Both the position numbers and the translations under genes were made by a program. Below, piece after piece: positions 35,387 through 63,851 of a stretch of 64,000 nt of DNA. Positions within the stretch are counted from its first letter, which is position 1. Each line of letters opens with the position of its first letter. The DNA is from Aromatoleum bremense (GTDB taxonomy: Bacteria > Pseudomonadota > Gammaproteobacteria > Burkholderiales > Rhodocyclaceae): positions 1-64,000 of the forward strand of contig NZ_CP059467.1 in assembly GCF_017894365.1 (NCBI RefSeq), in the 5' to 3' direction. The notes beneath the pieces were generated by a model, which worked only from the letters and a program-made list of their open reading frames with translations, searched no databases and was not told where the DNA came from.

Positions 35387-37273
35387 GTGTGCCGCAGGCA
35401 CACAGCAAGGAAGTTCAGCATGAACCGACAAACTGTGTCGAAGCTGCACGGAAGATGAGGGTAGGTCCCTCGGAGTCGGCTTTCAGGAGCGGGCTTCAAA
35501 CCACCCCAAGCTGCTGCGGTCAAGAGCCGTCGGTGGTGAGCGTTGGGGTCAAAGCGTCGGGGACGTACCCCGAGCAGGTAAGGATCAGAGAGACGAACGA
35601 AAGTGAACCCTCGATGACGCGTCGTTATCCAAAGAATTGTCGTCAAAACCAGGGGCGTTTCCACTTCCTGGGACAAGCTTGCCGGGCACCTGATTACTGG
35701 GCAAGCGGCGGCCGGCGTATAGGGGGCGTGAAGCTGATCCAGGCTTCCGTGCGGAACTGCGGGAACCAGTCGTTGCGATGTCAAGGGAGAAGCACAAGTG
35801 GCAGAAACCACGAGGCGAGAGTACCGATGCGCAGCACTGGGACGGATCGACCCGTAGTAGTGATGAAGGCCGGTAATGCGGCTGGAGCGAAGGGGTCGAG
35901 TCAAGCGGTTGCATTCAGCGTCCAACTGGCAACAGGAGGAGACGGATGAGTGCAACAAAACCATTTGCCATCGACAAGTGGCAAGTGTACGAGGCGTATC
36001 AAGCGGTCAAGGCCAATGCGGGCTCGGCCGGTGTGGATAGGCAGTCGATCGAGGCGTTCGAGCAGGATCTGAAGGGCAATCTCTACAAGATCTGGAATCG
36101 GATGTCCTCGGGAAGCTACTTTCCGCCGCCGGTCAAAGCGGTCGCCATTCCGAAGAAGAATGGTGGGGTGCGCATATTGGGCGTTCCGACAGTGGCCGAT
36201 CGCGTGGCACAGATGGTGGTCAAGCGGGTGATCGAGCCGGAACTCGAGGCGCGGTTTCTGCCGGACTCCTACGGGTATCGTCCCGGAAGATCGGCGCTGG
36301 ATGCCGTGGCGGTAACGCGTCAGCGTTGCTGGCAGTATCCCTGGGTGCTGGAATTCGATATCAAGGGCCTGTTTGACAACATCGACCACGCGCTGCTCCT
36401 TCGGGCGCTCGGGAAGCATGTCAAATGTGAGTGGGCCATGCTGTACATCAAGCGCTGGCTGACGGCGCCGCTGCAACATGCGGACGGAACCTTGGAGGAA
36501 CGTACCAAGGGGACCCCACAGGGTGGTGTCGTCAGTCCGGTGCTGGCCAATCTGTTTCTACACTACACGTTTGACGTCTGGATTACGAAGCACTATCCGG
36601 ATAACCCCTGGTGCCGGTATGCCGACGACGGGGTGGTGCATTGCCGGACTGAACAGGAAGCGCTGGCCCTGCGGGCAGCGCTCGATGCGAGGTTCGCGCA
36701 GTGTGCCCTCACAATGCATCCGGACAAGACCAAGGTCATCTATTGCAAAGACGGCAGCCGCAAAGGAAGGTATCCGAACACGCAGTTCGATTTCCTCGGA
36801 TACACCTTTCGGGCGCGGACGGTGAAGAACAGCAAGAAGAACAGCCTGTTCGTCAGTTTCACCCCTGCGGTCAGCAGCACGGCGGTCACGGCAATGCGGC
36901 AGAAGACACGCAAACTGAACTATCGGAATCGAACGGACCTGAGTCTGGCAGACATTGCACGCCTGCATAACCCGATCCTCAGGGGTTGGCTGGAGTATTA
37001 CGGCAAGTTCTGTCGCTCGGCGATGTACCCCGTCCTGCGCCATTTCAACATGACGCTGCGAGCGTGGGCGATGAAGAAGTACAGACGGCTGAAGGGTCAC
37101 AAGATACGCGCGGCTCGCTTTCTCGAAGGTCTCGCCGAAAAGCAGGCGTACCTCTTCGTGCACTGGCAACGAGGGATGGTCGGTGCGTTCGCTTGATGGG
37201 AGCGGTGTGAATCGAGAGGTTCACGCACCGTTCTGTGAGAGGCTGGGGGTGCGATTCCCCCGGCCTACTTGCC
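35387..37273 (+). mobile_element. group II intron
   Basis: The 5' end reads GTGTGCCGCAGGC, fitting the GUGYG start of bacterial group II introns. Domain V lies at about 37199-37234 (GAGCGGTGTGAATCGAGA, then GGTTCACGCACCGTTC), with the AGC triad in its first strand. Domain VI follows as a GC-rich hairpin ending GGCCTACTTGCC, where the A is 7 nt from the proposed 3' end, the normal branch-point distance. Boundaries are set by restoring the transposase frame, so they may be off by a few bases. It encodes one reverse transcriptase/maturase. Confidence 0.8.
35946..37196 (+). CDS. ltrA: group II intron reverse transcriptase/maturase
   Basis: The 416-residue protein has the ordered RT motifs of intron-encoded proteins: NAGSAGVDRQSIE, VRILGVPTVADRVAQMVVKR, YGYRPGRSALDAV, the GTPQGGVVSPVLANLFLH block and the catalytic YADD in CRYADDGVVH. 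A maturase X region lies near RGWLEYYGKF. No H-N-H endonuclease domain is seen at the C terminus, so mobility would rely on replication-fork or pre-nicked targets. GGAGGAGACGG precedes the start. Confidence 0.9.
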   Translation: MSATKPFAIDKWQVYEAYQAVKANAGSAGVDRQSIEAFEQDLKGNLYKIWNRMSSGSYFPPPVKAVAIPKKNGGVRILGVPTVADRVAQMVVKRVIEPELEARFLPDSYGYRPGRSALDAVAVTRQRCWQYPWVLEFDIKGLFDNIDHALLLRALGKHVKCEWAMLYIKRWLTAPLQHADGTLEERTKGTPQGGVVSPVLANLFLHYTFDVWITKHYPDNPWCRYADDGVVHCRTEQEALALRAALDARFAQCALTMHPDKTKVIYCKDGSRKGRYPNTQFDFLGYTFRARTVKNSKKNSLFVSFTPAVSSTAVTAMRQKTRKLNYRNRTDLSLADIARLHNPILRGWLEYYGKFCRSAMYPVLRHFNMTLRAWAMKKYRRLKGHKIRAARFLEGLAEKQAYLFVHWQRGMVGAFA

Positions 37274-48799: not shown

Positions 48800-51625
48800 T
48801 TATTCGCCCTGTTCGAACTCAGCACTCCTGAACTTGAGAACTTTGCAGTTCTCCTTCACCGCCCGCTGCACGTTGTCATCGAAACCGGTCTCGGTTTCGG
48901 CCTGAATCTCGATCGCGATCTTCACCTTCACACCCGGTCGGGCGGTGAACTGCAGCACGACCTCATCAACCAAGTCGGCGAACTGCTTCTTTGCCTGGAA
49001 AGGATCCAGCTCGATGCTGCCATAGAACTGGCGCTTCGGTGGCTGCTGCGAGGTGGCGCCAGGGACCGCTGGATAGGTTGGCTTCGCCGAGTCCTCGACG
49101 CGCGGCGGGGTCGTGGTGCCGGTGCCTGTAGTTGGCGTTGCGCCCTTACGCGCCTCTTCTGCCGCTCGCTGGGCCTCCGCAAACATCGCCGCCGTCACCG
49201 GCTCGATCAGCAGGAGCGACGAGTCCATGAAGATCGACGTTTTCTTGCCGAAGCTGAAGCCTACATAGCGGCCTTCATCCTTGCCCTGCGCGATGCCGAA
49301 GAAGTCGCGGCTGTCGGCGCCGGCACCAACTGTGGTCTGGAACGTTACGTCATCCCTGAGGCGGGGTAGATAAAGGTACTGGCAGCTCTTCTGCCAAACG
49401 TCCACCGCGCTTACCTCGCGAATCTCATCTTTCCAAAACCAAGTCTTCAACACCCCTACAAGATGGATGGGAGCCCACTCGGTAATCAGCAGCTCGTTTT
49501 CCTTCAGGACGCGCTCGATCTCTTGGGATGGGTTCAGTGCGCCGGGATTGAGCGGGAAGTGTTCCCACTGCACTTCTGACATTGCCTTTCCGGGGCGGGC
49601 CTCCTGCATCGGCGCAAGCAGCCATTTGTATGTCTCGCGCACCATGCGCCTGAGTGCCTCGCCTGCGTCCTCCAGGCTTTTGCTGGCTTGCTTGGCCTGG
49701 AACTGGTCCAGGTTCAGCTTCATCTCCCTGATGTCGCTGACGATCGACTGCCAGGCCAGCATCGAGCGGACTTGATCTTTGAGTCTACTGACGTTGTCAT
49801 AATCGGCCGCCAGGAAGATGAGCCGGTTCTGTTTCTGCCTCGGCTGCTCACCGCGGGCCTTCAGAATTTCCTTGGCCCGTTCGGTGGCCAGGTTTTGTCC
49901 GCTGCGGCTGAATGCCGCATCAGGCGGTAGTACCACCAAGCGAAGCTGCCAGTCGTCTGGCACGTCGCCGCTCGCCGTGAAAACGTGGATGCCACCAAAC
50001 ACTCCGGTTGCCAGGCTCCTCTGCACACGTTCGCGAACAGCCGGGAAGACATCTTCCTTATCCTGGAAGCGGCGTTTGCGCTCTTCCATCTCGCGCCGCA
50101 GGTTCGGCCGGGTGTCGAACCAAAAGCGGTTGTTGGCGCTGTTCAGATAGTGCAGCCGGTCACCGAGCCGGCGGAGTGCGTCCTTGTACAACCCGATCTG
50201 CTGGCCGGGCTGAACCACACCAAGCACAACCCGTTCAAGTTCCAGGCCGCGCACAAGCTGGTTCGACGTGCTCGGGGCACTACCCAGAAAGATCGCCCGT
50301 GTCGCGCGCCGGCACGCCTGCACGCTACCGAACTTCGACTCACGGTTCTCGATCTCGACGGGCTCTGACCGCTCGCCGTCCACGTCCCGCTCCAGCACCG
50401 GGTCCCATCCCTGCGGCAGGTACTGGATTGCTTCGTTGCGGGTGTCAGCGTCGTAGATCGGCAAGCTGCCCGGCATGATCAAGGGGTCGTTGTTGCCGTC
50501 CTTCCAGAGGCGGTGGATGACCTTGGCCATCAGCTTCAGTACACCGCGCGTGCGCTGGAAGTTGTCCAGCGTCGACCAATCGTCGTACAGCCGATCGAAC
50601 ATTTCAGGGTGAATGGGATACGCGTGAAGCAGCCGGTCGAAGTAGCGGCTTTCCTGCGTCTCGTGCGGCAGATCGTCCTTGTTCGCGACGTAGAAGTCCG
50701 CGAACGCGCGGCATACCGACTCGGTCGCCAGCTTGTCGCCGATCGTAGTGAACAGCCTCCGGCGCACGATCTCGAACGCCTCCTCGGTGCCAACGGGCTT
50801 CCAGAGCGCCTGAACACGGCCGAAGTAGTGCGACAGCGAGGCGAGCGCCTTGATGCCGCGTTGACTGCCGGCTTCCCTGTCGGACTCGGGCAACGATGCG
50901 AGCAGGACTGCCGTAGGCACGGCTTTCAACGCCTCGGTCAGCGCCTGGACGAACGTCAGGTTCGAGTCATAGGTACCGCCCGTCAGCGCCTTGCCCTCCT
51001 CAAACTGGCGGACGTACGCAACCAGCTCGTCGATCAGGATCACACAGGGCGCGCAGCGGCTCAGCAGCTCTTGCAGAACGGTCTTGCCGGGTGACGTGCC
51101 GGACGCATCAGCGTCTGCCACCATCGAGTAGCCCTCATCGCCGCCAAGCTGCCAGGCAAGATCGCCCCACAGCGTGCGTACGGACTGCTTGCCCCGCGTG
51201 ACTGGCTGGTTGGGGGATGACTTGATGCCGTCCAATACGGCGACGCGCGCGCGGGGTAGCTCCGTCACCCCCGCAGCGTCCAGGATCGCCGGAACGCCAG
51301 GCAAGTCGCTCGGCAATGCCTTGCCATTCGCCAAGTGGTAGATGGCCAGCATGGTGTGGGTCTTGCCGCCGCCAAACGCAGTCTGCAATTGAATGACCGG
51401 GTCGCCGCCCTTACCCGAAAGGCGCTTGACCACTGAATCGAGCAGCAATCGCATGCCCTCGGTAATGAATGTGCGCTGGAAGAACAGGCTCGGGTCCTGG
51501 TATTCGGCGGTCGCCGTACCGTCATGCACGCGCGACAAGTCGGCTGCGAATTCGGCCTGCTGAAATGTTCCTTTCAGCACATCCTCGTGCGGAACGGCGA
51601 TCTCGCGCCACGGCTTCAAGCTCAT
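48800..51625 (-). CDS. DUF499-family AAA ATPase, defence operon
   Basis: The 941-residue protein has a P-loop in [20 protein letters not shown] near residue 65, a Walker B-like [15 protein letters not shown] near residue 150 and an ordered C-terminal domain rich in Pro before [11 protein letters not shown]. It matches the DUF499 ATPases related to BREX BrxC/PglY, large ATPases of methylation-linked defence systems. The start at 51625 overlaps the nuclease stop by 4 bp. It is the last gene of the operon. Possible roles are complex assembly or phage-DNA sensing; no activity is shown by sequence alone. Confidence 0.82.
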
Positions 51626-52689
51626 TGTTCTTCCCCACCCATGTCTTGTTGATGCGTCAACAGCCCTTGCGCCGCGCGCTCTCGCGCATGCTCCACCGCG
51701 CGATGCAATTGGCGTTGCAGCAGCTTCATGTCCGGTATCTGCGCGAGGTATTCGGCGACCCGAATGCCAGCCGATTCCAGGTCCATTAGCTCTACCTGTT
51801 CGCTGTCTGCACCTGCGCACAGAATCAACCCCAGTGGCGAGGCTTCGCCCTCGACGCGGTCATGCTTGTCCAGCCAGCGCAGGTACAGTTCCATCTGACC
51901 TTTGTGGGCGGGCGCGAAGGGCTCGAGCTTCAGCTCCACGGCGACCAGTCTGCGCAGGTGCCGGTGATAGAACAGCAGGTCGAGATAGAAATCGTCGCGG
52001 CCCACGCTGATGCGCTTTTGCCGCGCGACGAAGGTGAAGCCCGCGCCAAGTTCCAGCAGGAAGCGCTCCATGTCACGCAGGATCGCGGTCTCCAGGTCGC
52101 GCTCGCTGTAGCCGTCGGGCAGGCCCAGGAAATCGAGCATGTAGGGGTCGCGGAACACCATGTTCGGCGTCATCTGCCCCCCCACGCGCAGGTGGCTCAG
52201 TTCCTTGCGTACGACCGCTTCGGGCTGTTTGGTTAGCGCAGTGCGCAGGTAGAGCTGGCTAGCGATGCGCTCGCGGAGAGTACGCACACTCCAGCGCTCG
52301 ACCCGGCACATTTCGGCATAGAACTCACGCTCCAACGGTTGTTTGAGCGGCAAAATCTCGACGAAGTGGCTCCAGCCCAGTTCTCGCGACAGCGTCGCGA
52401 CGATCTGCTCGTCCGGAAAGGCCTCGGCGAACTGCACCATCCGGGCGAGATTGCGAGCGCTGAAACCCTTGCCATATTCGGGGACCAATTTTGCCGACAG
52501 TGTCGGCAAAATCTCCTCGCCATACTGAGCGCGTTGCCCTTGCAGTATCTCCCGCTGGATTCGCTCCCCCAGCTTCCAATGCAACAGCGTCAAGGTGCTG
52601 TTGGCTGTCTGGGCAAGGTGCTGCCGGGCCTGTTCGATCAGCCCGCGCAGGTCGGAGAGGAGCGACGGGGTGTGCGCCACATTACTCAT
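51622..52689 (-). CDS. DUF1016/YhcG-type PDDEXK nuclease
   Basis: The 355-residue protein has an N-terminal DUF1016 helical DNA-binding domain ([17 protein letters not shown], then [20 protein letters not shown]). A C-terminal PD-(D/E)XK nuclease core has [20 protein letters not shown] followed by VELK, giving the Asp and Glu-x-Lys of the active site. Such proteins accompany restriction-type loci and may cut non-self DNA. The start at 52689 overlaps the previous gene by 8 bp, and the stop overlaps the ATPase start. Confidence 0.85.
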
Positions 52690-53344
52690 GTCCCGCCTCC
52701 TGCCACGCGCGTTGCAGGAATTCATGGTCTGGCAGCAACGTGAAAAACTGCTCTCCACCCAGCAGCGACTTGCTTAGAACACGTAGCTCGTGTTGAACCT
52801 GAACGTCTAGCCTTTCATCTAGGTAGGCAGTCCCAGTCAGCTTGTGATTGACGCTCCGCCTCAGCTCGCGCAAACCACTCGCAAGCGCCTGCATCGCCTC
52901 AATGTCCGCAGTTTCAAGCGGAATGTTCAGCGTGTGTGCTTCTTTCAACGCTCGGTTCAAGTCATTGTGGCTCAGATACTTGTCACGGACGGTTTTCAAG
53001 CCGGAGCCATCCCAAATCGCCCGAATGGCCTTCTCGTCGAGACAGATCCTTGAATCCTTCTCCACCAACCGTTTCAAGCTCAGGTTTGGCCTCTCGCCTT
53101 CACGCCTGCCGCTGTTTGCCGGGTCCATCAATCGAGATACCCGCATCAGCAATGATTCTATAAAAGCCGTTTGCATCAATCTGAAGAACAAGGGTGCGTC
53201 CTGTCCCAGCGTCGCCAAGCCTTTGCCCTGCGGCTGGAAATACAGGCCATCCACGGCTTCCCAAAGGAGCTGAATGCCCGTGATCTCTCTATTGATGATT
53301 TCCCATAGCTCTGTGGCGGAGGGTTGTGGTGTAGTGGCAGTCAT
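52682..53344 (-). CDS. AbiU2/HEPN-like protein
   Basis: The 220-residue, mostly helical protein contains RDKYLSHND near residue 118, which fits the R-x4-6-H RNase motif of HEPN domains and the AbiU2 pattern. HEPN proteins are frequent abortive-infection RNases or toxins. The start at 53344 overlaps the methylase end (stop at 53352) within the same operon. No other catalytic motif is visible. Assignment to AbiU2 is by motif and architecture, not by search. Confidence 0.6.
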   Translation of the reverse strand: MTATTPQPSATELWEIINREITGIQLLWEAVDGLYFQPQGKGLATLGQDAPLFFRLMQTAFIESLLMRVSRLMDPANSGRREGERPNLSLKRLVEKDSRICLDEKAIRAIWDGSGLKTVRDKYLSHNDLNRALKEAHTLNIPLETADIEAMQALASGLRELRRSVNHKLTGTAYLDERLDVQVQHELRVLSKSLLGGEQFFTLLPDHEFLQRAWQEAGHE

Positions 53345-54952
53345 GGCGGTCTCAAATGTCCAGACGCGCCTGTGAGCCAACGATGCCCGCGTCAGCAGCC
53401 GCTTGTTCGATGCTCGACCATGCGCCGACCAGTTCGTTGTAGGCGCGTGCTTCTTCGGCCCAGCCTTTGCGTTCGCAAAGTGTGTACAGGCGATAGGCCA
53501 GCGCGCGCATCGGTTCAGCCCGTGCTGGCATGCGCGCGAGCAGCGCGCCAGCGGCCGATTCGCCGTCCTGGTTGAGGGCACGGATCAGGTGGTGCAGGGC
53601 TTCCCAGATCGGCGTGCGGGTGTCGGTCTCGGGCGACCAGTCCTTGGGGAGTTCAGCCCAACGCAGCAGGCGCAGCTTGCCAGCACCACTCTCTACGACG
53701 CCGGAATCTTGCAGGCTACCGACGCTGGTGCCCTTGGCGCGAGCCAGCACATCGGCATCGCCGAACTTGCCCACGGCCCAGCCTTGCCCCTCGAACCAGT
53801 GCAAGCAGAACTGGGTGTCGTGGTCGAAATCGTCCTCGCTCAGGAAGCGGTTGATGAGTTGCAACGCGGTGCGCACGCTCATCGGCGTGCCGTCGGCTTC
53901 GAGCACCGCCGCGTACTGGCTGAAGATGGCCATGCCGGGTCCGATGATGGCCTGGCTCAGGTCGACCGGGGCCACGGGACTGTTGACACCATCGCTGGTC
54001 ATATCAAGGAGCGCCGCAGGCAGGACAGCGTTCAACTCTCGGATGAATTGGCGCCGACTTATCGCGGGAGCGTCAGCAGCACGCTGCCGACAAACAAGCA
54101 CTATGCTGGACGCAAGTGCGTTGTTCCCAACTCCAACCTGCCGATTGTCGCCCTCAGTGCGCATCGGCCATGTGCCAGTGATCGCAAAACCGGCTTGAAG
54201 AACAGCCTGGAGGAAAGTTTCCCAGCCGGTGCTGTGGGTACCGGACTCATCGTCAGTTTCGGCCTGCTTGTATGCATAGTAGATCGTTACTGGATATGCA
54301 GGATGGGATCGCTTAACAAGGTTAGCAATCGCACTCCCCATACCGTCTAGGAAAAACGCCTCCGCCGCCTCTTTGCCGCCATGCCGATAGGGGCTCGCCA
54401 CCAATTCCTCTTCTTTGGGTACGGCCAGCGTTGCGAAAAGGTCAGGAAACACGGAGCGCAGTGACCTCCGCAACCAGACATAAAAGAAGTCCGAGAGGTC
54501 CGCGTAACCGATATTGGCGAAATACGGAGGATCTGTACTTACGACCACCGATGACGGGCCGCCGTCAAGAGCGTCTGAGGACGCGGCGCTGCTTTGCGTC
54601 GCTACGCCTGGTGACACGCAATTGAGGGCAGTCTCCAGAACGTTTGCGACGACGCTGATGCATCCCCCAAAGCCCGAGCTGGACTTCGCGAGCGGCGAAC
54701 CCTCGGCATAGTCCCAAGACATCTGGACTGCCTGCTTTGGCATTCCGGAGCGCATGGCATTGTCTTTCGGTCGCCAAGTTGCGAGCGAGCAACCATAGTC
54801 GGCAAGCCGACTGACCGCGCAAGCGAGGTAGACACCGACCGCCTGGGCATACGCCATTGCTCCAGAGCCGCCTGCATCGAGGCTGTGACTATCGTCGGAC
54901 CAGCCAGCTTTCTTGGCATCAGCCAGCACGTGCGCAACCGCCTCGGTTACTA

Positions 54953-56199
54953 GTATATCGTTCCGATAATATATTTACAAAATGACCGGCAAGCGCCATG
55001 CTTCCTGCGGCTATCGGACAGGAGGCGATCGTGGGGCGGAAAAGCGGACGAGCGGCGTTGGTGCTGTCGGAGGAGCAGCGGGCGATGTTGTCTGAACTGG
55101 CGGGGTCGCGGACGGCGCCGGTGCGAGAGGCTGAGCGGGCCGGGGTGTTGCTCCGCTATGCGCAGGGCGCGTCGATCAGCGAGATTCAGCGACAGTTGGG
55201 CGTAAGTCGGCCGATGATTTACAAGTGCATCGACAAGGCTCTGGCGGCAGGCGTTCAAGTCGGTCTGAAGGACGCCTATCACCGCCCGTTTGCGCCCGAG
55301 ATCACCGAGGAGGCGAAGGCCTGGGTGGTGAGCGTAGCGTGTGCTAAACCGAAGGAAGTCGGTTTGGCTGCGGAACTGTGGAGCATCTCGGCGCTGGCGA
55401 GCTATGTCGCCGCGCATGCCGAAGAGGCGGGTTTTCCGCGTCTTGCCGCTGCCGGCAAGAGCACGGTCTGGCGCATTCTCAACGAGCACCAACTCAAGCC
55501 GCACAAGATCAGCTACTACCTTGAGAAACGGGATCCCCATTTCGACCGAAAGATGCATGAGGTCCTGATGGTCTACCGGGACGTTTCGCTCTACACCGAA
55601 GGCGCCGTTCATGATGGGCGGCCGAATCCCATTTACACCGTCAGCGTCGATGAAAAGCCGGGGGTGCAAGCAATCGGCCTGACGGCCCCGGATTTGCCGC
55701 CGGTCCCGGGCAAGGCGCCAGCGGTTGGCCGGGATTATGAGTACGTCCGCCATGGAACCGTGTCGATCCTGGCCGGCATCGATTTGCACTCCGGCCATGT
55801 GTTTGCCCAGATCGAAGACCGGCACCGCAGCCGGGAATTCATCGCCCTGCTCAAATCGATCGATGCTTACTATCCGCCGGCGGCCATCATTCGCATCGTC
55901 CTCGACAACCATTCCTCCCACATCTCTCGCGAGACAATGGCATACCTCGCCTCGCGGCCTGGACGCTTCGAATACGTTCACACCCCCAAGCATGGTTCCT
56001 GGCTCAACCTGATCGAATGCGCCTTCTCGAAAATGGCGCGCACCTTCCTCCGCCACATCCGCGTCGCCTCCGTCGACGAACTCAAGGCACGCATCGCGAT
56101 GGGCATCGACGAAATGAACGCGACCCCCGTCGTCTTCCGATGGAAGAAATTCGACTTGGAGGTCGCGTGATTTGTAAGCATATTTCTGGAACGAACTAC
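54953..56199 (+). mobile_element. IS630-family insertion sequence
   Basis: The 1247-bp element has imperfect 26-bp ends: GTATATCGTTCCGATAATAT on the left and the inverse complement of GTAGTTCGTTCCAGAAATAT on the right. It sits between two TA dinucleotides (54951-54952 and 56200-56201) within a CTAG target, the TA duplication expected of IS630/Tc1-mariner elements. It carries one plus-strand transposase gene, opposite to the operon it interrupts. Confidence 0.9.
55031..56170 (+). CDS. IS630-family transposase
   Basis: The 379-residue transposase has an N-terminal helix-turn-helix ([20 protein letters not shown]) and a DDE domain with [26 protein letters not shown] and a final [18 protein letters not shown]. 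The GTG at 55031 follows AGGAGGCGATC; an ATG 33 bp upstream is in frame. It looks complete, so the element may still be mobile. Confidence 0.88.
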
Positions 56200-57506
56200 T
56201 AGGTCGGCGAAGCAAGTCAGCGCGACAAGTTGGCGTGGGGTGAATAGATCACCCCATTGCGTCAAGCCGTACGGCACGCACGTGCCCCCCGTAAGGCGAG
56301 CAGGAACCTCCCCGACAGGGCGCCACGCCGGAACTGCGCTTCGCGCAATTGCTTCGTGATCAGACGTCGGTGGCAGGTATACGCGACCACGACTGCCTTC
56401 AGCCACGATGGCCATTAGGCGCGCGCTCATACGACCGGCTTGGCCCTCGGCCTTAATGTAGTCACCAGAAATTGGCGTTCCAGACGCGCCAGATAGCAAA
56501 CATATGAAATTGGAGCTGCGCCCGTTGGCCTTGGTACCATTTCCCGCGCCTTCTGGGGGCTCACCGACCTTGACCGTAAACCGGTAGCTATCACCATCGA
56601 CGATGGGCTGCACATAAACCTGCTTACCGGCCTTGCTTGACAGCACAAAGGTCGACACAAGCGGCACATCAGCATGACTGAATGCGGGGTTGGGGCTTTT
56701 CACCGTACGCGCCCATAGCCAGGCGATCACAGTGAGTTTGTCGCCGACATAGGGTTTGAGGTCCGGACGGTCCTCGGCCATCGCCGCCGTGACTTCTATT
56801 GGGGGGTACAGATGGCCGATACGCGATTTAGCCTCGGCGCGCATCCAAGCCCCGTAGCGCCTCACGCTCTCCGCAAGGCCTCTTGCGCCGGACCAGTCCT
56901 CGTGCAATTTTCCCTGTCGCTGGCCATCTAGCACCGACCCAACTGGCAGGCGACCGACGAACTTGGGCGGGATTTGTACCATTGCCTTGTTGATCGTCAC
57001 AGCAACTGGATTCAAGTCAGACGCATAGCTTTCCAACCCGAGGCGTTGCGCTTCCAAAGGCAACGCGCCGCTACCCGCGAAGGGGTCGTAGAAGGCGGGA
57101 AGTCGTTCAGGGTTGAAGAGTTCGGCGGCTTCTGGATGCCCCTTGTTGAGTTCGCACGTCTCGCGCCAGCTTCGCCAAATCTCGGCGCTCGCAGCTTGGA
57201 GTACGGTCTCGTTGTTGGTGTTTTCCCAAAGCACGAGGTCTTCGATGATCTTGAAAAGGCGCTCGCGCTCGATTGCCGCCTTTTCCTTGTTAACGCCGTA
57301 ACGAAAGCCTCCGCCCTGTTGGTATCCAGGATCGTTGACCATTTGAGCAAATACAACTGCGCGAGCAACAGCCACAGGCCGCTGGGCCCACCACTTGTGT
57401 AGCGTTGTGGGGTAACCGCCTGGGGCCTTTCTCTTACGAAGTGCCGCCTCAGTGTTTATTTTGTCGAGCGGGAGCGCAACCTCGATGAGCTTCTTCGGCG
57501 ACTTGA

Positions 57507-57785
57507 TCATTCAATGATTCCTGCTGCGCGGTAGGCCCGCTCCATTTCGTCCTTGGGTACGGTCACGGTGTCGTACTCACCGCGCCGTCCCATGCAAGCG
57601 CACCAGTCGTGCAGTGTGACCTTCTGGCGGGGCGTGAGGCTGAAGCTCTCAAAGCCGGTCTCGCCTCCCTTGGTCATGTACACGTAAACCCCCTTCTCGT
57701 CCTTGCGGATGGATAGCTCCCCCACGCCCTCGCAGGTCTTACCGCTGAACCTATCCACGCGGATGAGCTTCACTTGAATCAGCAT
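57507..57785 (-). CDS. 92-residue protein of unknown function in the defence operon
   Basis: The product starts [20 protein letters not shown], includes two short beta-rich blocks and ends [11 protein letters not shown] recognise no domain. The start overlaps the helicase end by 7 bp and its stop overlaps the methylase start by 4 bp (ATGA), so it is translated with them and is a real gene. A small partner or specificity factor for the methylase is possible. Confidence 0.6.
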
Positions 57786-60700
57786 TGCTGTACTCCTTCG
57801 GCAAACTCCGCACGAGCCAGCAACTGATCCAGGTCGAGGTTAATGCTCGTGACCGCCCAATCCGGCTCCTGGGTGAAGGGCTTCTTCACGTAGAACGGAC
57901 CTTCATGAGCGTCGCCATCCACTAGCACCACGGCGAGCATAAATTTCTCCTGCTGGTTCAAGCCGTACAGCACTTCGTTACGCGTGACGGTGATCGTGGT
58001 CTGGCCTTTGGCGCGGCCCTTGACCTCGATGTGCCGCGACGGCGGAATGCGGCCGTCTACATGCCCGGGGATGCTGGTGACATCCCAGCCGCATTTCTGC
58101 GCGGACACGTCGATGACTTCATGCCCCATGGCGCGCTCGGCCGCCATGACCGCGTTCATGGCAACCTGCTCGACGCGCGTGCGCGCGTCGGCATCCGCCG
58201 ACCAGCCAGGCTCGGCCTTTCGCTGCATCAGCAGACCCACGGGGATGACCACCGCGCCCCCGGCGACGACCGGTGTAGCCGACACGATGTGCCGCAGAGC
58301 TTTGAGTTCCTTCTCACGGGACTCGCGACGAGCCGTGAGGTCATCGATCGAACGGCGGACGTTGTCGAGCGTCAGCCGAACATCCTTGCCCGCCGATAGA
58401 TCGTCCTGCAGCTTGATGTAACGGTCCGACCAATAGTTGATCTCCCGAACCAGGCGCTCGTGCACGGCCGCCATCGTCTTGTCGACGTGGGCCTCTCGCC
58501 GTTCGCGCACTTCGTTGAAGTGCTCGGGCACGAGGTGAGCCGATGCATGAGAGAGGGCAAGCTGCTCCAGGTCTTGGGTGATCCATGGCGCGGCAAGCAC
58601 ATCCTGAACCAAGGCCAGATCCGATGCGCTGATGGCATGCAGGTCCAAGTGGGGAGCCCAGCCGGCGTTGGAGGCCGAGCCCTGCAGATCGATCTCGACG
58701 AACTGCATACGCCGCGATGCTACATGCGCGAGGTCTGGCCCTTCCTTGACCGAATGGTCGATGATGAACATCACCTTGGGGCTCAGACCCAGGTCGCTAG
58801 GGTCTACGAGCACCGTGCCCTGCTTGAGCTTGTTGCGGTGCTGTTCCAGCACGAGATCGGTCACCGACTGCATGAGCGGATGTGCAGGGTGCACGAGGCT
58901 TGCCATGGGTGCGCCAACGCGACCTGCGAGTCGCACGAACTGCTTTTCGAAGCAGACGCGTTCGTAGCGGCGGAGAACAGGATCCGGATTTCGGCGGTCG
59001 CGGCCGGCGATCTGGCGGTCCCGCTCGCGCACATGGGCCGGCACGTGGGTGATCTCGTACCGTCCCTGTTCGCGTGGGCGCAGCTCGCCACCGAGCTGCT
59101 GGAAGGCCTGGTTGAAGAATGACCGGATGAAGTAGGGCTGCAGCTTGCGGGCCTCTGCCTTCTCCATTTCTTCCTTCACTGCGAATAGTCGCTTCTCATC
59201 CATCACCTCTTCGCACAAGGCGTTGCGCTTGATGATGGTTTCCAGATGCTGGGTGTCGAGCGCCCCCTCCACCTTGCGATGAAGCCGGGCCCGAATCTCG
59301 GGATCGTCGCCGTAGCGAATGGCGTCGATCAGCAGGTCCTTCAGGCTGCGGTCTTCGAAGACCTCACCCAGGATGTCGAACACCCGGCCACCGAGCGCCT
59401 TGCGCTCGACTTCGAGCTTTTCGAAGAGGCGGTGAAACACGTCGCCTTCGCGGGTCTCCGACGCGACCATGTTCCAGAGGTGGCAAACCTCGGTCTGGCC
59501 GATGCGGTGGATGCGGCCGAAGCGCTGTTCAAGCCGGTTGGGGTTCCACGGCAGGTCGTAGTTGACCATCAGGTTGGCGTTCTGCAGGTTCACGCCTTCG
59601 CCGGCTGCGTCGGTGGCCAGCAGCACGCGGGCGGCCGGGTCGTTACGGAACAGCTCCTGGACCTTGCGGCGGTCTTCGCGTTTGACGCCGCCGTGGATCA
59701 TGACAACCGACTCTTCGCTGCCGATCAGGCCGCGAATCTTCACCGCCAGGTAGTTGAGCGTATCGCGGTGCTCGGTGAAGATGATGAGTTTGCGCTGACG
59801 CCCTTCGGCGTCATGCATCTCGGGCGTGTTCTGCAGCAGCTTGGACAGCTCGTCCCACTTGCGGTCCTGGCCCGAGTGAACGACTTGCCGCGCCTGCTCC
59901 TCCAGCGATTCGAGGATGATGATTTCGGCTTCAAGTTCCTGGATGGTCTGCGCTGCAGTGGCTTGGTCAACGACCGCTTCCTCGAAGTTCTCGTAGTCAT
60001 CGGGCGACAGTGCGTCGGCCGATTCCCAGATGTCCTCGGGGGTGCCGTTGAAGCTGATGGTCTCGGCGAGCGACTGGCCTCGGCTTCGCAGCTTCTCCTC
60101 TTCAACTCGGCGCTTGAGCTTGTTTCGGCGCCGCTTGAGCGACTGGTAGATCGCCTCCGGGCTTGAGGCCAGACGCCGCTGCAGTGCGGTCAGCGCGAAG
60201 CCGACCGTGCCTTTGCGCGCGCCGTCCTGAAGCTGGTCGGCGCGGTTCATTTCATCCTTCACGTAGCTCGTGACGGCAGCATAGAGCTCGGCTTCCAGGT
60301 CAGACAGTTTGTAGTTGGCAGTGGTAGCGCGGCGCTCGGGGAACAGCGGCGTGCCGTCGAACTTGAGGAGGTCTTCCTTGACCATGCGGCGCATCAGGTC
60401 AGTGACATCGACCTTGTGGGCGCCCGTTTTTCCGTCACCCCGGAACTTTCCATAGAAGCGGTCCGAGTCGAGCAGCGACATGAAGAGCTGGAAGTCCTCT
60501 TCCTTGCCGTTGTGCGGCGTAGCCGTCATCAGCAAGAAGTGCCGCGTGATCGAGCCCAGCAGCTCGCCAAGCAGAAAGCGCTTGGTCTTGTTGATCTTGT
60601 TGCCGAAGTAGTTGGCCGAGAGCTTGTGGGCTTCGTCAACGACGATCAGGTCCCAATGCGACAGCTTCAGCTTCTCCTGCAGGTCTTCGTTGCGAGAGAG

Positions 60701-61324
60701 TTGATCGACACGCGCCACCATCAGGTCGATGTCGTCGAAGGGGTTGCCGCTGCGTGACTGCTCGACCTGCTCGCGCGAGAACAGAGTGAAGGTCAGGCCG
60801 AACTTCTCGAACATTTCGTCCTGCCACTGCTCGACCAGGCTGCCGGGGGCGACGATGAGCACGCGTTTGGCGTCTGCGCGCATCAACAGCTCGCGGATTA
60901 GCAGGCCGGCCATGATGGTCTTGCCGGCGCCGGGGTCGTCGGCCAGCACGTAACGCAACGGCTGGCGCGGCAACATGGACTCGTAGACGGCGGTGATCTG
61001 GTGCGGCAGCGGTTCGACGTTGGAGGTGTGCACGGCCATCATCGGATCGAACAAGTGCGCGAGGTTGATGCGGTAAGCCTCCACGGCCAGCTTGAAGTCT
61101 TCGCCGGGCGCGTCGAAGGCCCAAGGGCGGCCAACCTCCGCTAACGACAGGTTGGCCTCGTCCGCACGGAACAGCATGCGTTCCTGCAGGCGCCCGTCGG
61201 ATGTCTTGTAGTAGACGGTGACCGCATCAGGGCCCACGGGCTCGGTGGTGACGATGCGGACGACCTGGCCAGGCTCGATGCCGCCGATTGCCGCGTTCCT
61301 CTTGATGGATTCGAGCTTCAGCAC
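57779..61324 (-). CDS. SNF2-family helicase with C-terminal DUF3883 domain
   Basis: The 1181-residue protein has SNF2 motifs I ([19 protein letters not shown] near residue 130), II ([11 protein letters not shown]), III ([14 protein letters not shown]), V ([13 protein letters not shown]) and VI ([11 protein letters not shown]). A C-terminal DUF3883-like domain has [20 protein letters not shown]. Similar helicases occur in DISARM-type and other methylation-linked defence systems. Translation begins at GTG 61324, 3 bp after the WYL gene stop. It would act on DNA in the cytoplasm, perhaps translocating to halt phage entry or replication. Confidence 0.88.
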
Positions 61325-61327
61325 GGG

Positions 61328-62221
61328 TCAGGCTCCTTCGTCTTCGGGCTTGTAGCCGGGCGCAAGCACCAAGTTCGCCACGCCGTACAGGGCCTGCCGG
61401 TTCTTCAGCCAGAGATGGTTTTCACCGCCCTTGAGGCTGTGGTCGGGTGTGCAGTCGACATTCCATCGCCGGAGCATGTAGCCCACGAGGGCTGCGCGAA
61501 CTCGGGTCACCAGCTTGCCATCGGACATGCCGTATTCGGTCTCGATCGTGTCGGGGTTGCGCATGTTGGCCGGGTGCGGCACGAGTTCCAGCTCGACAAT
61601 TCGGTTCCATTGGATGTCTTGATCCGGCCGTTCCGCATCCGCGATCGGACCATCGACGAAATGGGCATCGGTGATGCGGGCCAGAACGAAGTCACGGAAC
61701 TCCTGGGATCGACGGTCGTAAGCACGCACGTGCCAGCGGCTGCCGCTGTCGGCCAATGCGAAGGGCACGATCTCACGCGTTGTCAGCCCACTGGTAAGGG
61801 CTCGATAGGTGATCTGCACCGCCATCTTCCGGTGGACCGCCCGCGTGATGACGGACAGCGTTTCCAGGTCGGGCTGACTGATCTCTGTCGCGGCTTCGGT
61901 CGCAATCAGCGGCCGATGGCGTACAGGCTCGTTGTCGCCGTACCCCTGGGTCAACCAGGTTAGGACCCGCGCGGTGCTGAAGTCGAACAGTGGCCGGAAC
62001 CACTCGGTGCGGACATACACCTTGCTCTTGCTGTCGTAGTCGATGTTGCCTGGCACTAACTCTTTGTAAGTAGCCAGATCACGCGTCGCGGCAGCTGCCT
62101 GGATGCTGAAGCGAGTAAACAAGTCCTGGCGCCGAACCTCCCCTAGGAAACGGACGCGCAGCTCTATAAACGCGAGGCGGTCGCGCTGGGGTTGGGTGAG
62201 GTCTTCTGGTTCTGTGGCCAT
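61328..62221 (-). CDS. WYL-domain transcriptional regulator (BrxR/CapW-like)
   Basis: The 297-residue protein has an N-terminal winged helix, a WYL domain (MAVQITYRALTSGLTTREIV, then RWHVRAYDRRSQEFRDFVLA) and a C-terminal WCX-like region. Regulators of this type repress BREX (BrxR) and CBASS (CapW) operons and release when they sense a phage-related signal. It is first in the minus-strand operon and faces the CBASS operon across a region with a perfect palindrome, so it may control both. Confidence 0.83.
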   Translation of the reverse strand: MATEPEDLTQPQRDRLAFIELRVRFLGEVRRQDLFTRFSIQAAAATRDLATYKELVPGNIDYDSKSKVYVRTEWFRPLFDFSTARVLTWLTQGYGDNEPVRHRPLIATEAATEISQPDLETLSVITRAVHRKMAVQITYRALTSGLTTREIVPFALADSGSRWHVRAYDRRSQEFRDFVLARITDAHFVDGPIADAERPDQDIQWNRIVELELVPHPANMRNPDTIETEYGMSDGKLVTRVRAALVGYMLRRWNVDCTPDHSLKGGENHLWLKNRQALYGVANLVLAPGYKPEDEGA

Positions 62222-62292: not shown

Positions 62293-62345
62293 TTTCGATA
62301 CGCCTCTTTTTGATGCTATAGTCAGCCTTATGTTGATCTCAACAT
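62293..62345 (+). promoter_or_regulatory. promoter and palindromic operator between the two defence operons
   Basis: A sigma70-like pair, TTTCGA at 62293 and TATAGT at 62317 with an 18-bp spacer, points toward the CBASS genes. Just downstream lies ATGTTGA-TC-TCAACAT (62330-62345), a perfect 7-bp-arm inverted repeat covering the expected transcription start. A dimer bound there would block transcription. The WYL protein encoded next to it is the obvious candidate. A promoter for the leftward operon must lie in the same 120 bp but is not clear. Confidence 0.6.
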
Positions 62346-62409
62346 GGCTCGTCGATGTCAACTTTCCCGCCGCCGAGCCAGCGCAGTCGTCGCCACTCGA
62401 GTGAGAGCC

Positions 62410-63360
62410 ATGCCGCTAACCGATACCCAGCTTAGTTACTACGACAGCAACATCCTTCGCTTGCCGGCCGACAAGCGCAAGGAATACCACGCTCAGGTTG
62501 ACAGGCTAGTTGTTGAACTGAGCACGAGCGTTCGCGACAAGACTGAAATCAAGATCACCAAGGTGATCAAGGCCGGCTCGTTCGCCAAATTCACGATCCT
62601 GCGCAAGACCTCGGTGGACCCGGTTGACGTGGATGTTGTCTTCTACGTCTCCGGGCGCAACGTCGAGCAGGAAACCCTCGCGAGTCTGACCGACACGATC
62701 TACGACCTGCTCATCAAGATTTACCCGAACAAGGATGTTGAGCACTTCCAGATTCAGCGAAAAGCGGCAACGGTCGCGTTTGTCGGCTCGGGCCTGAGCG
62801 TCGACATCGTTCCCGTGATCGAGGACGCCGCGCGGCCCAACTACGGCTGGCAGTTCGATATCCAGAATGGGTCGAAAGTGCAGACCTGCGCGCCGTGTCA
62901 AATTCAGTTTGTGCGCGACCGGAAGGCCGCCGACAAGGACTTCCGGACGCTCGTCCGGCTCGCAAAGCGCTGGCGAAACCAAGCGGAACTGAAGCCGCTT
63001 AAGTCGTTCATGATCGAACTAATCATGGCCTACGTTCTGGACACGCAAGGGTCTGGCGGGTCAATCGAGCAGCGCTTCCGCCGATTCCTCCACTACGTCG
63101 CGCAGTCGGGATTGAAGGAGGTCATCTCGTTCCCCGAGAACACGACGCCGATCGGTTCTTTCTCGGATCCAGTAGTCATCATCGATCCCGTCTGCTGCCG
63201 CAACAACGTTGCGGCTCGCATTACTGAAGCGGAGCGCAAGGAAATCGTGACCGCGGCGACCGAAGCGTGGGAGACAGCGCACTTCGCGTCGGCCGAGGAT
63301 GACATTGACGCCTGGAAGGAGGTGTTCGGCCCCCGGTTCAAAGTGGAGGATGACGAATGA
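62410..63360 (+). CDS. CBASS CD-NTase (cyclic oligonucleotide synthase)
   Basis: The 316-residue protein is a cGAS/DncV-like nucleotidyltransferase. It has the GS motif in AGSFAKFTILRKTSV, the paired acids in DPVDVDVVFYV and the third acid in LSVDIVPVIEDA. The OAS-like C-terminal helical part includes RLAKRWRNQAELKPLKSFMI. On phage sensing it would make a cyclic di- or trinucleotide to trigger an effector. The ATG at 62410 is chosen as the motif region begins after it; a frame to 62344 overlaps the operator. It overlaps the next gene by 4 bp. Confidence 0.87.
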   Translation: MPLTDTQLSYYDSNILRLPADKRKEYHAQVDRLVVELSTSVRDKTEIKITKVIKAGSFAKFTILRKTSVDPVDVDVVFYVSGRNVEQETLASLTDTIYDLLIKIYPNKDVEHFQIQRKAATVAFVGSGLSVDIVPVIEDAARPNYGWQFDIQNGSKVQTCAPCQIQFVRDRKAADKDFRTLVRLAKRWRNQAELKPLKSFMIELIMAYVLDTQGSGGSIEQRFRRFLHYVAQSGLKEVISFPENTTPIGSFSDPVVIIDPVCCRNNVAARITEAERKEIVTAATEAWETAHFASAEDDIDAWKEVFGPRFKVEDDE

Positions 63361-63851
63361 CTTACACGGCATCCGACACCTATACATACACGGACACGGA
63401 CATCGAGAAGGTAATGCGGCGATTTACCGCCGACATCGTAATGATCGCCCAAAGCACCGGTGCGATCACGGAGGCCAAAGCGCGCGAGTACGCCCACGAC
63501 ATGGAGACGCTCGCGAAGAATGGCTACCTGAAGAAGGTGGACTTGACGCTGCTCAGCGGCATCAATGAAGTTCGCGCCACCCAATACACCGTCAACACTG
63601 TGGGCAGCGATCTCACGTCGAGTAGACCGGGTGGCGTGATGTGGCCGCGCGTGCCTAGCCCAGACCTGCGCGTCATAGTCTTCCACACCGACGCCTACGA
63701 TGCGGTGGCAAGGGAAGTGATGAAGCCGAAGCTGAAGATCGGATGGACCCCCACGAGGGCCGACACGAGCCACTCCGGGCTTACCAACGGCGTGGGCCGC
63801 GACTATGCAAGTAACGGTTGGGGCCTGCAGCGAAAGGACTTTGGACAGTGA
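63357..63851 (+). CDS. HORMA-domain protein of type III CBASS (Cap7-like)
   Basis: The 164-residue protein starts TYTASDTYTYTDTDIEKVMR and has the fold pattern of bacterial HORMA proteins, with a C-terminal segment (TNGVGRDYASNGWGLQRKDF) that could act as the safety belt. In type III CBASS the HORMA protein binds and activates the CD-NTase upon recognising a phage peptide, and a TRIP13 ATPase resets it. Identification rests on its place between CD-NTase and a TRIP13-like start; sequence similarity within this family is low. Confidence 0.7.
   Translation: MTYTASDTYTYTDTDIEKVMRRFTADIVMIAQSTGAITEAKAREYAHDMETLAKNGYLKKVDLTLLSGINEVRATQYTVNTVGSDLTSSRPGGVMWPRVPSPDLRVIVFHTDAYDAVAREVMKPKLKIGWTPTRADTSHSGLTNGVGRDYASNGWGLQRKDFGQ

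Follow-up and report, generated by a model that had tools for sequence, protein, structure and literature searches.

A predicted Hma (Type-1 BREX-related) operon of Aromatoleum bremense with a split methylase gene and passenger genes in exchangeable gaps

The first 64,000 nucleotides of contig NZ_CP059467.1 of Aromatoleum bremense (assembly GCF_017894365.1), referred to here as the window, carry a cluster of defence genes on the minus strand between positions 48800 and 62221. Based on homology searches and on comparison with related loci, this cluster is, with high confidence, an Hma operon, also known as a Type-1 BREX-related (BR) system (BREX, bacteriophage exclusion), under a WYL regulator of the BrxR/CapW type. 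The gaps between its core genes are exchangeable and hold non-core passenger genes, and its methylase gene, hmaB, is split by an IS630-like element. The original prediction, made from the sequence alone, had described an operon of seven gene types following each other, and domains and frames confirmed these on the minus strand in the order claimed: WYL regulator, Snf2 helicase, 92-aa open reading frame, DUF1156 methylase (in two pieces), AbiU2-type HEPN protein, DUF1016/YhcG protein and DUF499 ATPase (Table 1). The accompanying suggestion that the set may be a novel system was overturned, since PADLOC matched all three Hma core families (HmaA, HmaB and HmaC) near full length. What survives of the proposed single defence system is one BREX-related operon of DUF499 type with a methylase, a helicase and two nuclease-type passengers; the HEPN, DUF1016 and 92-aa genes are not part of the core.

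Table 1. Features of the Hma operon in the window (position 1 is the first nucleotide of the window)
Feature	Coordinates	Strand	Evidence
BrxR/CapW-like WYL regulator heading the operon	61328..62221	-	Pfam WYL 50 bits; matches to solved structures
HmaA, Snf2/SF2 helicase with C-terminal NOV_C (DUF3883-type) PD-(D/E)XK-like nuclease domain	57779..61324	-	PADLOC, Pfam
92-aa protein, passenger in the A-B gap	57507..57785	-	No family match
HmaB, 5' part	55978..57510	-	PADLOC HmaB, Pfam DUF1156, motif DPFAG
Insertion element within hmaB	54953..56199	+	DDE_3 and helix-turn-helix domains, inverted ends, duplicated TA
HmaB, 3' part	53352..54929	-	PADLOC HmaB; DPPY in translation
AbiU2-type HEPN protein of 220 aa, B-C gap passenger	52682..53344	-	Pfam HEPN_AbiU2
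DUF1016/YhcG PD-(D/E)XK nuclease, passenger in the B-C gap	51622..52689	-	Pfam DUF1016_N, YhcG_C
HmaC, DUF499 AAA+ ATPase	48800..51625	-	PADLOC HmaC; GGGKTH P-loop

HmaA matched its PADLOC model with 2129 bits over positions 1-1172 of 1176, and carries the Pfam domains Helicase_C, SNF2-rel_dom and NOV_C (78 bits, residues 1051-1142) together with the motifs DPGAGKT at 130, DEAH at 230 and EVKG at 1100. The restriction endonuclease (REase) at the C-terminus of the helicase, a feature of Type-1 BR systems, thus appears to be present as the NOV_C domain. HmaC matched with 1581 bits over positions 1-940 of 941; it carries no N-terminal HEPN fusion, only 13 in-frame residues lying ahead of its start, and such a fusion is not required for Type-1 BR. 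HmaB is represented by descent, as an interrupted gene and not as an intact protein. The short overlaps and gaps that had been noted between the genes, a few bases each, were found at all junctions: upstream of hmaB, 3 bases separate the WYL gene from hmaA, while hmaA and the 92-aa gene overlap by 7 and the 92-aa gene and hmaB by 4; downstream, 7 bases separate hmaB from the HEPN gene (its start being taken at 53344), the HEPN and DUF1016 genes overlap by 8, and the DUF1016 gene and hmaC by 4. Inside hmaB the description failed, the gene being split by the insertion element. The likely starts of the HEPN (53344), DUF1016 (52689) and ATPase (51625) genes each lie within a longer open frame. For the HEPN gene (open frame 52682-53581) the ATG at 53344 is the likely start because the upstream part overlaps the end of hmaB and a 220-aa homologue (record P0009) begins there.

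Three other named systems were considered. The DrmD equivalog helicase of DISARM (defence island system associated with restriction-modification) was not matched, the NCBIfam DrmD model scoring 382 bits where 610 are needed. Type-2 BR, with the arrangement DUF499-DUF1156-DUF3780-PLD helicase, was rejected on the scores of equivalog models for its DUF1156 and DUF499 proteins: 63 and 35 bits for NF042963 (cut-off 1000) and 210 bits for NF042962 (cut-off 1200). Neither PglZ nor BrxC of BREX was among the PADLOC matches listed for ten window proteins (the 25 best in the case of the helicase and the DUF1016 protein), the remaining genome not having been searched for them.

For comparison, 98 loci were gathered: the window, a second operon from the same genome (L003), 16 loci from relatives (HmaC was matched in 17 of 101 relatives' genomes) and 80 named loci, these being the best 80 of 476 by HmaB alignment. 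Eight of these were set aside because HmaB was weak or absent and a further one because it duplicated another, which left 89.

The two pieces of HmaB matched complementary parts of the PADLOC model, with 751 bits at positions 5-455 of 967 for the 5' piece and 870 bits at positions 449-966 for the 3' piece; the final residues of the 5' frame come from reading into the insertion element. This element is 1247 bp long and encodes, opposite to hmaB, a 390-aa transposase (54998-56170, plus strand) with the DDE_3 and helix-turn-helix domains. Its ends are imperfect inverted repeats of 32 nt (78%), flanked on both sides by a duplicated TA, and it occurs as a single copy in the genome (1 match). We take it to be IS630-like on account of the TA target of the IS630 family. 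The break falls between the two methylase motifs, the 5' piece carrying DPFAG and the 3' piece DPPY. Two side observations concern other loci. HmaB of L038 (8716-12444), the one locus besides the window to give two tblastn segments, forms a single frame of 1242 aa; its roughly 200 extra residues lie near residue 450, where the element sits in the window. In an Accumulibacter record (L084), HmaA and HmaC each align as three shifted segments, and the Hma system there also looks degraded.

Because the insertion element splits hmaB, the window copy of Hma is probably crippled. Most likely it no longer methylates, so that the copy which the original prediction expected to mark self DNA may not mark it at all, and the genes downstream of the insertion may be poorly expressed. 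It is improbable that HmaB works as two polypeptides in a system that is still active. The distribution of the motifs over the two pieces, the intactness of the remaining frames and the extra residues tolerated by L038 at the same position would suit such an arrangement; against it stand the size of the element and the opposite direction of its transposase, the absence at the break of any obvious start for the second piece, and the finding that hmaB occurs as two non-contiguous frames in the window alone among the 89 loci, with no such split in the other 88. In the window copy, intact hmaA and hmaC frames lie beside the split hmaB; expression behind the element may be lost, the methylase of the second operon may shield the same sites, or cutting may require HmaB.

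The two gaps between the core genes were compared across the loci. For the A-B gap, 74 loci allowed a measurement: 48 have 200 bp or more, 23 have 100 bp or less and three are intermediate; for the B-C gap the corresponding numbers in 81 loci were 39, 41 and one. In 19 loci the size of the B-C gap was corrected by subtracting an N-terminal extension of HmaC, which was HEPN_Swt1 in all four of the extensions scanned. Where both gaps were measured (70 loci), both were filled in 24, the A-B gap only in 20, the B-C gap only in nine and neither in 17. The same two gaps are filled across phyla. Not every gap of this size carries a gene: the 264-bp A-B gap of L047 holds no plus-strand open reading frame of 50 aa. 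All of 20 representative passengers had a PADLOC match at E<=1e-5, to families including Hma-embedded candidates (HEC-01, -02, -03, -05, -06, -08 and -09), Septu, PsyrTA, Ppl, AbiLii and PDC candidates; for one passenger (L064:13911-15674) the PADLOC matches were weak and Pfam indicated a Schlafen AlbA-like protein. A cluster of 17 PtuB-like proteins was found entirely in A-B gaps, each member adjoining an ATPase of the PtuA-like cluster, and the one such pair that was scanned matched PtuA1 with 668 bits and PtuB1 with 357 bits.

HmaC had two matches in the 4.38-Mb genome, the second belonging to L003. Identity of this operon to the window is 60% for WYL, 84% for HmaA, 76 and 69% for the two pieces of HmaB and 73% for HmaC, and its HmaB is unbroken (960 aa). 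Its A-B gap is occupied by an AAA_15 ATPase and by a protein of 196 aa whose HNH match stays below threshold, and its B-C gap by an AAA_21 ATPase and a 170-aa protein. These passengers cluster by sequence with proteins matching Septu PtuA/PtuB and HEC-02, PADLOC having been run on the cluster-mates rather than on the L003 proteins. Next to this operon (L003:1338-4343) are DUF3262, DUF2895 and DUF3438 genes, of a kind found in integrative conjugative elements, and the second Hma may be carried by one of these. Judged from these comparisons, the HEPN, DUF1016 and 92-aa genes are passengers outside the core of the system, because in other Hma loci, L003 included, their two gaps hold other genes or nothing.

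Stubs of a core-gene end were retained inside three of the 48 filled A-B gaps: two were hmaB starts, in L037 (9732-9895; sharing 98% identity with another locus across 45 residues) and in L122, and one was an hmaA end, in L048 (5988-6095). No core-gene stub was found in 52 B-C gaps. The stubs are apparent recombination scars and fit an exchange of passengers through recombination at the conserved ends of the genes, three cases being few.

The DUF1016 protein matched Pfam DUF1016_N (155 bits), YhcG_C (153 bits) and the PADLOC candidate PDC-S02 (418 bits); no HEC family was listed for it among the best 25 of 33 PADLOC families, which include PDC-S02. It also matches the phage family phrog_22762 (E 4e-64). 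Residues D237, E252 and K254, which are the expected nuclease residues, are invariant in six aligned Hma-borne copies. Of the 81 loci whose B-C gap was measured, four carry the gene (the window, L027, L044 and L057), and a 54-residue trace (E 5e-4) lies between the HEC-02 genes and hmaC in L046 (14460-14621), perhaps a decayed passenger. Of 395 family genomes searched, 57 contained matches at E<=1e-60, 61 in all, and the genomic setting was examined for the best 22. Among the 11 with at least 74% identity, the window's own included, seven lie in Hma-type loci. Six of these precede hmaC in Hma loci (its own, G004, G776, G787, G721 and G711, the G721 contig showing hmaC alone), while the seventh (G681) lies in a distant BR-like locus between helicase and methylase homologues (identity to A, B and C of 32, 28 and 29%). 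None of the next 11 (59-65% identity) is in an Hma-type locus (Fisher p 0.004, or p 0.008 for 5/9 against 0/11 when the query and one of the near-identical pair G787/G721 are left out). The check for chance neighbours set out in the original prediction thus gave an intermediate answer: the passengers are rare among Hma loci overall, yet close homologues of this DUF1016 are in Hma-type loci in 7/11 cases against 0/11 for the next, and on this distribution the gene is unlikely to be a chance neighbour.

The AbiU2-type HEPN protein matched PF18734 (HEPN_AbiU2) with 44.4 bits against a cut-off of 26.8 and had 180 relatives at E<=0.001, of which 120 were listed. It had no match to the 2023 PADLOC models, and so belongs to no HEC family listed there. 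Its sequence RDKYLSH (R-x5-H) fits the R-x4-6-H motif of the family, and it is probably an active RNase because R120 and H126 are invariant in 16 aligned homologues. Among the 81 loci whose B-C gap was measured, two have the gene, the window and L027 (59-63% identical), directly before the DUF1016 gene in both. The 92-aa protein had no match in Pfam, PADLOC (2023 models), NCBIfam or PHROGs. Seven relatives at 60-73% identity were found, making eight proteins with itself; the gene occurs in one of the 74 loci with a measured A-B gap, in none of the other 97 of the 98 loci, and in one of 326 family genomes. A structure model consists largely of strands with a C-terminal helix and gave no trustworthy fold match.

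Two other explanations of these passengers were weighed. That they are chance neighbours in a defence island, functionally unlinked to Hma, would agree with their high variability and with the adjoining CBASS (cyclic oligonucleotide-based antiphage signalling system) operon, which makes the area a defence island. It is nevertheless unlikely, since the passengers are inside a translationally coupled operon and not alongside it, the same two gaps are used across phyla, and close relatives of this DUF1016 are over-represented in Hma-type loci as given above. An integrated system of seven genes, with HEPN and DUF1016 as obligate effectors triggered by the DUF499 ATPase, is very unlikely: the overlapping junctions, the HEPN-DUF1016 order repeated in one relative (L027, at 59-75% identity), the fusion of HEPN to HmaC in another clade (also PMC12839542) as a precedent for an ATPase-linked HEPN and the same DUF1016 enrichment favour it, but both genes are rare in measured B-C gaps and missing from L003, DUF1016 occurs without HEPN in L044, L057, L158 and L161, 17/70 loci are passenger-free, and B-C passengers accompany 6/19 HEPN-bearing HmaC proteins against 33/62 others (Fisher p 0.12), which leaves simple substitution unsupported.

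The WYL protein matches BrxR/CapW-type structures across its whole length, the closest solved structures being 7qfz (WYL domain-containing protein, E 7e-84), CapW 9c5g (2e-35) and BrxR 7t8k (5e-22). With the window's WYL as tblastn query, a relative was found in nine of the 55 loci that have a complete hmaA start and sufficient upstream DNA. Analogy with these regulators suggests that it represses the operon until infection.

Taking the Hma operon with passengers as the preferred interpretation, the core would act in a manner similar to restriction-modification (R-M), judged from its domains and from PMC12839542. In an intact copy HmaB would mark host DNA by adenine methylation, HmaC (the DUF499 AAA+ ATPase) would assemble on incoming DNA and aid its recognition as unmarked, and the Snf2 motor of HmaA would translocate on the DNA, which its C-terminal nuclease would cut. 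The combination of DNA cutting with an RNase arm in the original prediction is redistributed: in Hma the nuclease domain of the helicase already provides for cutting DNA, and HEPN and DUF1016 are passengers. The former is a probable RNase that would serve as an abortive back-up halting infected cells and the latter a probable extra DNase; both would be separate layers riding in the operon under shared regulation, not parts of the core machine. A more specific proposal, which we regard as possible but doubtful, is that the AbiU2-HEPN and 92-aa proteins are two undescribed Hma defence modules, that HEPN-DUF1016 is a separable cassette acting once the core is overcome, as an in-trans counterpart of the Swt1-HEPN fused to HmaC, and that passengers are swapped by recombination in the core-gene ends.

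Several points weigh against the preferred interpretation. The domains, the gene order, the interruption, the second Hma and the variable gaps are observed; we infer every activity, the consequences of the insertion and what the passengers do. The pieces of HmaB may still methylate through two-piece complementation, and the type of methylation is described differently in the literature, HmaB being called a 5-methylcytosine enzyme in PMC8565338 and an adenine enzyme in the PADLOC model description and PMC12839542. Four of the 11 close DUF1016 genes have no visible Hma, two of them (L163 and L166) lying on stretches that end less than 2 kb from the gene on one side. The loci were sampled by HmaB similarity (best 80 of 476 in the main scan), and frequencies among them are not to be read as those of all Hma systems.

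Elsewhere in the window, the CBASS operon begins on the plus strand 122 bp from the WYL gene (window 62344-63851, continuing to 66458 in G000:C1, L005); its genes encode a SMODS cyclase, a bacterial HORMA protein, an AAA ATPase (TRIP13-like by position), a Cap17-like protein and an RNase_T exonuclease. A group II intron was identified at 35457-37273 on the plus strand, with domains D1-D4 and the catalytic core above the Rfam cut-off. No tRNA genes were found in the window.

The result strikes one supposedly new system off the list. The Hma core and the embedding of defence genes in Hma are already known; the new particulars are the AbiU2-HEPN and 92-aa proteins as Hma passengers that have no PADLOC models, and the methylase broken by an insertion. 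If these two passengers have activity of their own, embedding in Hma stays a productive source of new defences. With two Hma operons in one genome, differing passengers in the same gaps and the junction stubs of relatives, passenger exchange becomes directly testable, and the broken methylase next to intact nuclease genes gives a natural setting in which to study how the cell escapes harming itself.

Hma was described as a three-gene operon with 1,638 occurrences in 26 phyla, often together with Septu type I (Payne et al. 2021, PMC8565338). The window shares with it all three core proteins and the A-B-C order, and relatives carry Septu-like pairs in the A-B gap; it differs in the interrupted hmaB, the extra 92-aa, AbiU2-HEPN and DUF1016 genes and the upstream WYL gene. 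In 2026 Hma was renamed the Type-1 BR system, centred on DUF499 (PMC12839542), where a C-terminal REase on the helicase is given for 79% of taxa, the DNA-cutting reading is published, and PD-(D/E)XK, HEPN, HNH or TOPRIM nucleases are reported near or within some loci. The DUF499 ATPase, N6-methylase and Snf2 helicase with C-terminal REase are common to both. HEPN is there mostly fused to the ATPase (1370/2446 taxa; Swt1-type in the four relatives scanned here), whereas in the window it is a separate gene of AbiU2 type. Genes between Hma genes have been described as HEC, with phage resistance confirmed for several that were tested (PMC12111858), and embedding within Hma is likewise stated for GmrSD-like genes and Septu (PMC11411939, PMC12255303). 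Three window genes sit between Hma core genes in the same way, but the AbiU2-HEPN and 92-aa proteins match none of the 2023 PADLOC models. A 2013 survey of HEPN proteins (PMC3710099) described R-M operons in which DUF499 is fused to HEPN alongside an SNF2-DUF3883 helicase, and also noted R-M operons containing AbiU2 HEPN; unlike the window, none of the AbiU2 cases in its passages on R-M operons belongs to a DUF499 locus. The WYL protein, finally, resembles BrxR/CapW (7t8k, 9c5g and 7qfz) along its sequence and in lying upstream of a defence operon; it differs in that, if acting on its own operon, it would regulate Hma and not BREX or CBASS.

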